Assembly (NCBI GenBank): GCA_945921515.1
Contig: CAMEKR010000002.1
Span: forward strand, 1-55,749
Direction of reading: 5' to 3'
Source: an uncultured Clostridia bacterium
GTDB lineage: Bacteria > Bacillota > Clostridia > Oscillospirales > Ruminococcaceae
Length of the DNA: 55,749 nt
Part shown: positions 5,155 through 13,668 of the stretch, piece by piece
Numbering within the stretch: the first letter of the stretch is position 1
Layout: each line of letters starts with the position of its first letter
Position numbers and translations under genes: made by a program
The notes under the pieces: generated by a model
What the model saw: only the letters and a program-made list of their open reading frames with translations
The model's database searches: none
Told to the model about the DNA's origin: nothing

Positions 5155-5523
5155 TCATTTACTGCCGGACTTTGAAGTGTTGATGGAAGAAATCAGCATT
5201 CTGCGTATCGATCCACAATTGTGCAGAACACTTTTTGCAATATCCTCAGAAAGAATACCGGCTTTTTGAGCAATTTCAATCCAGTATTCTGTTTCGTAAC
5301 ATTCTTTTAATGCAATCTACAGCTTTGCAATAAAATCAGATCGACTATGTGCATATTTTGCTTCACGAACATTTGTGCCAATGCTCGTACCGTTTCTTTC
5401 AAGCGGATTAGACAACGAGTAATGTCCTTTAATATTATCAGTCAGTTCCAGTATTTTAACAACAAAGTCCGTAGTTAAATCAGCAAGCTTATTTTCAGCT
5501 ATATCAATCACCTCTTTGCACAA
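5155..5523 (-). pseudogene. Four-helix-bundle protein (23S rRNA intervening-sequence/S23 type) interrupted by an in-frame TAG
   Basis: MCKEVIDIAENKLADLTTDFVVKILELTDNIKGHYSLSNPLERNGTSIGTNVREAKYAHSRSDFIAKL*IALKECYETEYWIEIAQKAGILSEDIAKSVLHNCGSIRRMLISSINTSKSGSK*; the same frame continues through the TAG to TGA at 5155-5157. Confidence 0.8.
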
Positions 5524-5633
5524 ATAGCACTACTGCACGATTATATTATAAATGAAATCGCCCAAAGGCAATAAAATCCTCGCATAGCTCGGATGAAATT
5601 AAAAGTGTACTTAAACCAACAAGAAACCATAGC

Positions 5634-5803
5634 AATGATATATTGCTGACGCAATATGATATACGGCTAATGCCGCATGATATGCTCGCTATGCAAGCAT
5701 GATATAATATCCGTTCCCCAATACGCGAAGCGTATATCATCTGCGAAGCAGATATCATACCGACAGGTATATCATCCGTGACCGCATGGAACGGATATCA
5801 TTG
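5634..5803. repeat. Array of ~7 short hairpins separated by ATGATAT / ATATCAT spacers, orientation switching near 5706-5720
   Basis: TATTGC-TGAC-GCAATA; ATACGGC-TAAT-GCCGCAT; ATGCTCG-ctatg-CAAGCAT; ATACGC-GAA-GCGTAT; ATCTGC-GAA-GCAGAT; ATACC-GACA-GGTAT; ATCCGT-n11-ACGGAT; plus ATATCCGTTCC (5707-5717)/GGAACGGATAT (5788-5798). Confidence 0.85.
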
Positions 5804-5845
5804 AAAAAGACCGTATTTGTCTATAAGACAAATACGGTCTTTTTC
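5803..5845 (-). terminator. Intrinsic terminator immediately downstream of tRNA-Leu
   Basis: GAAAAAGACCGTATTTGTCTATAAGACAAATACGGTCTTTTTC. Confidence 0.85.
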
Positions 5846-5846
5846 G

Positions 5847-5933
5847 TGGTGCGGGGAAAGGGACTTGAACCCTCACGCCAATACTGACACAAGCACCTCA
5901 AGCTTGCCTGTCTGCCGATTCCAGCATCCCCGC
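5847..5933 (-). tRNA. tRNA-Leu (anticodon GAG), 3' CCA encoded
   Basis: Minus strand GCGGGGATGCTGGAATCGGCAGACAGGCAAGCTTGAGGTGCTTGTG...GGTTCAAGTCCCTTTCCCCGCACCA; anticodon arm CAAGC-TTGAGGT-GCTTG; long variable arm. Confidence 0.93.
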
Positions 5934-13494: not shown

Positions 13495-13569
13495 ATTTAC
13501 CTCCTCAATGACGCAGCTAAAACGCAATCGCATAAACGGGATAAATACGGCGATTATCTCTTATATGCA

Positions 13570-13668
13570 ACAGCGAGATGCGGATAACGCACCGCCACCT
13601 TAATGGTGTTCGTCCCGAGGACAACTCCCCGTCCCCCGGGCACTTTACGCGCATTAACCTACTCTGTC
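13570..13668 (-). promoter_or_regulatory. Tetrahydrofolate (THF/folE) riboswitch upstream of the folate ECF S component
   Basis: Minus strand ACAGAGTAGGTTAATGCGCGTAAAGTGCCCGGGGGACGGGGAGTTGTCCTCGGGACGAACACCATTAAGGTGGCGGTGCGTTATCCGCATCTCGCTGT: GAGTAG, GCGT.AAGTG, GGGACGAA, GGCGGTG...CCGC.TCTC elements. Confidence 0.87.

Follow-up and report, generated by a model that had tools for sequence, protein, structure and literature searches.

A hairpin array behind a tRNA-Leu gene as the putative 5' module of a mobile gene cassette linked to S23 proteins in gut Clostridia

The window analysed here, a stretch of 55,749 nucleotides, contains a tRNA-Leu(GAG) gene on the minus strand (5847..5933) that serves as the host site for the features described below; the putative cassette starts one base past its CCA. 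Reading along the same strand, the tRNA gene is followed by a terminator hairpin (GAAAAAGACC..GGTCTTTTTC, 5803..5845) like those found behind different tRNAs elsewhere, and then by the hairpin array that is the subject of this study (5635..5802, minus strand). Beyond the array lie the remnant of an older array of the ATGAAAT/ATTTCAT type together with a TATAAT-like -10 box (5541..5603, minus strand), recognized by comparison with genome G027 (locus L384) and with locus L374, and a broken S23/IVP gene (5155..5529, minus strand) of the ATGAAAT subtype. This gene belongs to the PF05635 family and is interrupted by an in-frame TAG at approximately 5317-5319. All three S23 copies in the genome from which the window comes carry a stop, so none is intact. 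(A THF riboswitch, RF01831, scoring 92 bits, is also present in the window at 13569-13668 on the minus strand.)

The array had been proposed, in a preliminary description made from the sequence alone, to consist of hairpins with differing stems separated by a constant spacer. The words and hairpins read in the sequence and in aligned copies confirm that it does: between 5635 and 5802 there are four ATGATAT words on the left and four ATATCAT words on the right, with the hairpins listed in that description between them, and the minus-strand reading likewise runs from four ATGATAT words with hairpins to four ATATCAT words with hairpins. Six spaced word pairs occur in the window array, compared to a mean of 0.03 in 100 dinucleotide-preserving shuffles. 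Both of the GAA loops described earlier were found, in the right half, and the reported 11-bp inverted repeat, which forms a super-stem, was located at 5707..5717 (ATATCCGTTCC) and 5788..5798 (GGAACGGATAT). What did not hold was the division between stem and full-length spacer: the AT ends of the spacer sit inside the stems, so that only about 3 nt are unpaired between hairpins (GAT on the left, ATC on the right). The array folds better than 200 of 200 shuffles on both strands, and its advantage is larger on the minus strand (z of -5.35, compared to -3.46 on the plus strand). A known RNA family was ruled out, as no Rfam covariance model matched above its gathering score at the array, and a search for a plasmid or phage origin gave no match.

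The array is not confined to this locus. Its own genome contains three copies, two besides that in the window at approximately 82% identity, genome G039 contains several, and copies are found in many Clostridia. The spacing pattern matched 31 times in the own genome and not once in the reversed control, and a triple match was present in 16 of 71 genomes of the genus, part of these being low-complexity sequence. Array loci were fetched by scanning GTDB contigs for a 16-nt motif, and loci with the whole composite came from many species, mostly Clostridia MAGs. (Note that because the motif was required for fetching, its invariance is partly a matter of ascertainment.) A loose spacer pattern also gave 119 stretches in viral contigs, these being raw pattern matches.

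The resulting set comprised 67 non-identical array copies, with most loci from MAGs, in which 192 distinct hairpins could be parsed and approximately 95% of stem positions pair. RNAalifold, applied to 35 aligned copies in the minus sense, predicted 40 pairs, of which 19 show compensatory double changes; the stems thus covary across homologues, as had been anticipated. Pairing wobbles favour the minus strand by 40 to 9 and are concentrated in a few columns. The super-stem is nearly invariant within the ATGATAT family, and a sister family has another sequence at this position with pairing retained (AAATCCACCC/GGGTGGATTT in G027). Among right-half loops of 3-4 nt, 36 of 45 are of the G..A form and 34 of these are closed by C-G, while left-half loops, read on the other strand, are G..A in 17 of 41; taking both halves together, nearly all G..A loops have a C-G closing pair. 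The third position of the 4-base loops is C in 13, A in 9 and T in 4, and hence the GNRA rule of RNA is not followed. Four loci (L004, L063, L167 and L211) have an extra domain of approximately 80 nt (AAGAACCCGACCCGC..GGAACCTTGTTATTCGC) at the array centre that is conserved between species. Two more families of hairpin arrays with c(GAA)g loops, ATATCATCAA.. and ATATCACC.., occur in the genus (L047, L066, L085, L086, L087 and L090), some of them behind cargo-like genes.

The preliminary description had also raised the possibility that the array acts in cis as part of an element not yet described and associated with S23/IVP genes, an association that was borne out in other species. In 12 of the 55 copies with enough flanking sequence, a PF05635 ORF follows the array immediately and runs in its direction, compared to approximately 0.001 expected from S23 density; most array copies are without S23. 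In the genus, what precedes an S23 ORF is either a hairpin array with another spacer or a run of tandem heptads, and sister units carry other 7-nt spacers. Strong lag-7 periodicity was detected upstream of 34 of 77 S23 ORFs and downstream of 32 of 76 (other lags, 0-1 per set; control windows, 2 of 166), and the downstream heptads are often the reverse complement of the upstream heptads. Moreover, spacer type follows the S23 tree with seven changes, which is the minimum; shuffling gave a mean of 23.9, with none of 200 shuffles as low, although near-copies in the tree help this clustering. The ATGATAT group of the tree contains 11 rows, from organisms labelled as several families, with support of 99. 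The tree places the window S23 with the ATGAAAT sequences, in agreement with the type of the adjacent remnant array. Thus, the array does have the S23 neighbour that was first noticed, but this neighbour is not of the array's own subtype: it is different, older and broken by TAG. (The S23 protein of G067 matches the solved structure 2rld. Weak PF05635 matches at L367 in G053 and L368 in G042 lie beside sequence of a lectin-like variable protein and are probably DGR Avd.)

A tRNA or tmRNA gene of 13 kinds in all ends 28-45 nt away from the array, in the same orientation, in 44 of the 67 copies, and a terminator hairpin fills the gap. One identical 37-nt terminator stands behind tRNA-Arg, tRNA-Leu and tRNA-Gly in different genomes, so the terminator is part of the element and not of the tRNA; the description of the array as lying between the tRNA-Leu gene's own terminator and a four-helix-bundle gene is therefore correct as to the S23 neighbour but not as to the terminator. 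A search for empty sites in relatives was successful at two loci, with the caveat that the filled and empty sites compared are from different species. At the smpB-tRNA-Leu(GAG) locus the site is empty in G039, whereas in G027 a terminator and an ATGAAAT-type array are inserted between the CCA and the original terminator, the latter being displaced to the far end and the same as in the empty site. The same locus holds two arrays of the ATGATAT family and an S23 gene in G067; in the window genome an array of that family precedes an ATGAAAT-type remnant array and its S23. At a tRNA-Arg locus compared across 30 genomes, hairpin arrays are present in four and a tandem-heptad element in one, and most of the remaining genomes, including that of the window, have ordinary terminators. 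(At L381 in G031, L382 in G014, L387 in G039 and L158, the host tRNA is duplicated, wholly or in its 3' part, downstream of the element or empty site, as happens after integrase-type insertion.)

Comparison of these loci gives the order terminator, array, promoter, S23 (where present), cargo and tail for each unit, and units can be repeated in tandem. The start of a cassette directly follows either the CCA of a tRNA or the terminal GCA of the cassette before it; within the cassette, the array has a constant 7-nt word in its first half and the reverse complement in its second, with a super-stem closing the centre. A sigma-70-like promoter site with its -35 at or near the array end is present in 17 of 55 copies, compared to 1.7% of random windows and 20 of 498 windows further away. 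In many hairpin-type loci the cargo gene is coupled to the S23 stop codon (ATGA). The tail, of approximately 57 nt, is conserved and usually ends in ..CTCTTTSGCA; a profile built from ten hand-picked tails gave, at E<0.001, matches confined to array-bearing loci among 488 loci, and its one match in the own genome (L029) lies behind a tRNA. At L206, a tRNA-Arg gene is followed by terminator, array, promoter, S23, methyltransferase gene and tail, and then by another array with an identical terminator. At L461 an AATGATG-type cassette precedes one of the ATGATAT type that has a gene and a tail of its own, the two types occur in the opposite order at L177, and tandem one-gene units with a structured site between them are also seen at L004. 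Arrays stand behind cassette tails even where a tRNA is absent.

Second genes encode histidine phosphatase, methyltransferase, HD, DUF218, pyrophosphatase-like, DMP19 and DUF4275 domains, and genes behind arrays that lack S23 encode NUDIX, DUF4288 and shikimate kinase proteins and lipoproteins. (Note that we use the term cassette only where a tail follows the gene; other genes behind S23-less arrays are not all counted as cargo.) A 99-aa cargo protein, 97% identical, is found behind a GTGAAGT-type S23 in G039 and an ATGATAT-type S23 in G065, with the same tRNA-Arg in all cases, and lipoprotein and DMP19-like cargo recur in other contexts.

Because the same cargo can occur behind different array and S23 types and tRNA sites are found both filled and empty, we read the window array as the 5' module, acting in cis, of a mobile gene cassette, a reading to which we assign a probability of roughly 70%. 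The suggestion that the array is the cis-acting part of an S23-linked element is thus supported, with the refinement that the element would also include terminator, cargo and tail and, often, a promoter. From sequence comparison, the window copy is best read as the front of a cassette that lacks an S23 of its own, with tRNA-Leu on one side and, on the other, an older S23 cassette of the ATGAAAT type, now decayed. Such tRNA-flanking cassettes of gut Clostridia built around S23 appear to be a type of mobile gene cassette not reported before; no description of S23 combined with gene cassettes was found in the literature searched, most subscription journals being outside that search. In the mechanism we envisage, S23 would bind its own array via a spacer/hairpin code, array and tail would label the unit as one to be moved to the 3' flank of another tRNA by a recombinase or polymerase, and the cassette terminator would keep the tRNA transcript correct, making insertion harmless. 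We see even odds that this amounts to a site-specific system independent of integrons, in which S23, coded arrays and tail move one-gene units between tRNA 3' ends with CCA/GCA as the attachment point. At the level of sequence, comparison shows that the parts come in a modular order, that units stand in tandem and mix types, that sites are filled in some cases and empty in others, and that S23 is coupled to the spacer. Against mobility, no movement was seen within a strain, part of the shuffling could stem from exchange through homologous recombination at tRNA loci (the 99-aa cargo is at the same tRNA-Arg wherever it is shared), and a number of the downstream genes may be nothing more than host genes. 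As to a partner enzyme, a Y1/RAYT transposase and the UG26 reverse transcriptase were both tested and neither was supported.

With small hairpins in inverted arrays, flanked by a constant word, the element resembles REP/BIME sequences, and we entertained the idea that a Y1 (IS200/IS605) or RAYT transposase spreads such palindromes by acting on hairpins in ssDNA, with S23 as a hitch-hiker. C-G-closed G..A loops are very stable in DNA, and their frequency in the right half (34 of 36) suits a model of this kind, as does the Y1 match in six of the seven genus members judged to be true array carriers (one of them weak). However, no RAYT gene was found in the own genome, whose sole Y1 match is an IS200 with end hairpins unlike the array; the RAYT-like gene of G027 stands among palindromes other than the array; array-rich G067, at 83% completeness, has no Y1 match; and the words of the array are 7 nt long and vary by subfamily (here ATGATAT/ATATCAT), as opposed to GTAG. 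The idea also leaves unexplained the fixed site behind tRNAs, the adjacency of S23 (in place of RAYT), its coupling to the spacer, the cargo and the tail. We consider it quite unlikely; a Y1/RAYT transposase was rejected as partner, and the array is neither a REP/BIME with RAYT nor a known Rfam RNA. (The RAYT-like gene, at L110 on G027:C25, lies amid GGGCGACTATCAGTCGCCCCTAC-type palindromes.)

An RNA retroelement of the IVS/DGR type, in which S23 would bind array RNA from tRNA read-through and a reverse transcriptase acting in trans would copy it back, is unlikely in our estimation. Avd, the accessory protein of DGRs, is a four-helix bundle and a relative of S23. The pairing wobbles favour the strand that gives the sense of both tRNA and S23, the minus strand, and IVSs undergo processing at the RNA level (PMC4990558). 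Yet these wobbles sit in few columns, a terminator separates tRNA from array, the S23 promoter lies behind the array, and the array, unlike a DGR, comes without reverse transcriptase, template or variable repeat, the own genome having no RVT_1 match. All four genus members whose hairpin-type S23 is intact have a UG26 reverse transcriptase, which the own genome lacks; S23 occurs in 6 of 19 UG26 genomes compared to 52 of 332 others, an excess that is not significant at the family level, and UG26 was rejected as partner on this basis and because most copies share a conserved neighbourhood. (A SAP/DUF6434 protein is paired with UG26 at L470-L473, and at L470 and L472 the pair adjoins an AAA kinase and a Thg1-like gene.) The very regular position behind tRNA terminators and the conserved structure would also fit an immobile regulatory or insulating RNA or DNA, a tandem terminator-like module inherited with its locus. 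That account is very unlikely given that arrays are patchy at orthologous tRNAs, differ in type between species at the same tRNA and follow cassette tails where tRNA is absent, and that the terminator tracks the array and not the tRNA.

The mobile-cassette reading invites comparison with 23S rRNA IVSs, such as that in helix 45 of Coxiella burnetii, with which the element shares the PF05635 protein family (PMC4990558). The Coxiella IVS has heptameric repeats (GACAGAT) ahead of its S23p ORF (PMC4990558), and heptameric repeats before S23, complementary element ends and a site at a stable-RNA gene are common to both; the element has an S23 ORF within or adjacent to it in 12 of 55 copies and complementary flanks with heptads (ATGATAT versus ATATCAT). 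In location it does not qualify as an rRNA IVS: the cassette lies behind the tRNA CCA, and 44 of 67 copies are behind a tRNA or tmRNA rather than inside 23S rRNA. In addition, its heptads are interleaved with individual hairpins, and it has its own terminator, promoter, cargo gene, conserved tail and tandem units. In architecture alone, the units work like integron cassettes, with tandem one-gene units, a structured non-coding site and variable cargo. Unlike those, S23 units carry a promoter and often S23 itself, attach at a tRNA CCA or cassette GCA, and have many small hairpins in place of a single attC.

S23 is an enigmatic small protein previously known mainly from rRNA insertions, and the function and origin of S23/IVS elements were stated to be unclear more than 25 years after the discovery of IVSs (PMC4990558). 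With S23 tied to coded arrays, cargo, tails and tRNA sites that are either filled or empty, this question can be put to a direct test. If the cassette reading is correct, gut Clostridia possess a gene-capture system whose key parts, being non-coding repeats, escape annotation. On the integron-independent reading, 23S rRNA IVSs would form a branch within this class of S23 elements. In general, S23 elements appear to have tandem heptads on their flanks, and among the host sites spotted by eye are 23S rRNA and RNase P RNA genes. At L432 (G118) and L436 (G194), an S23 element with complementary heptads apparently lies inside the RNase P RNA gene.
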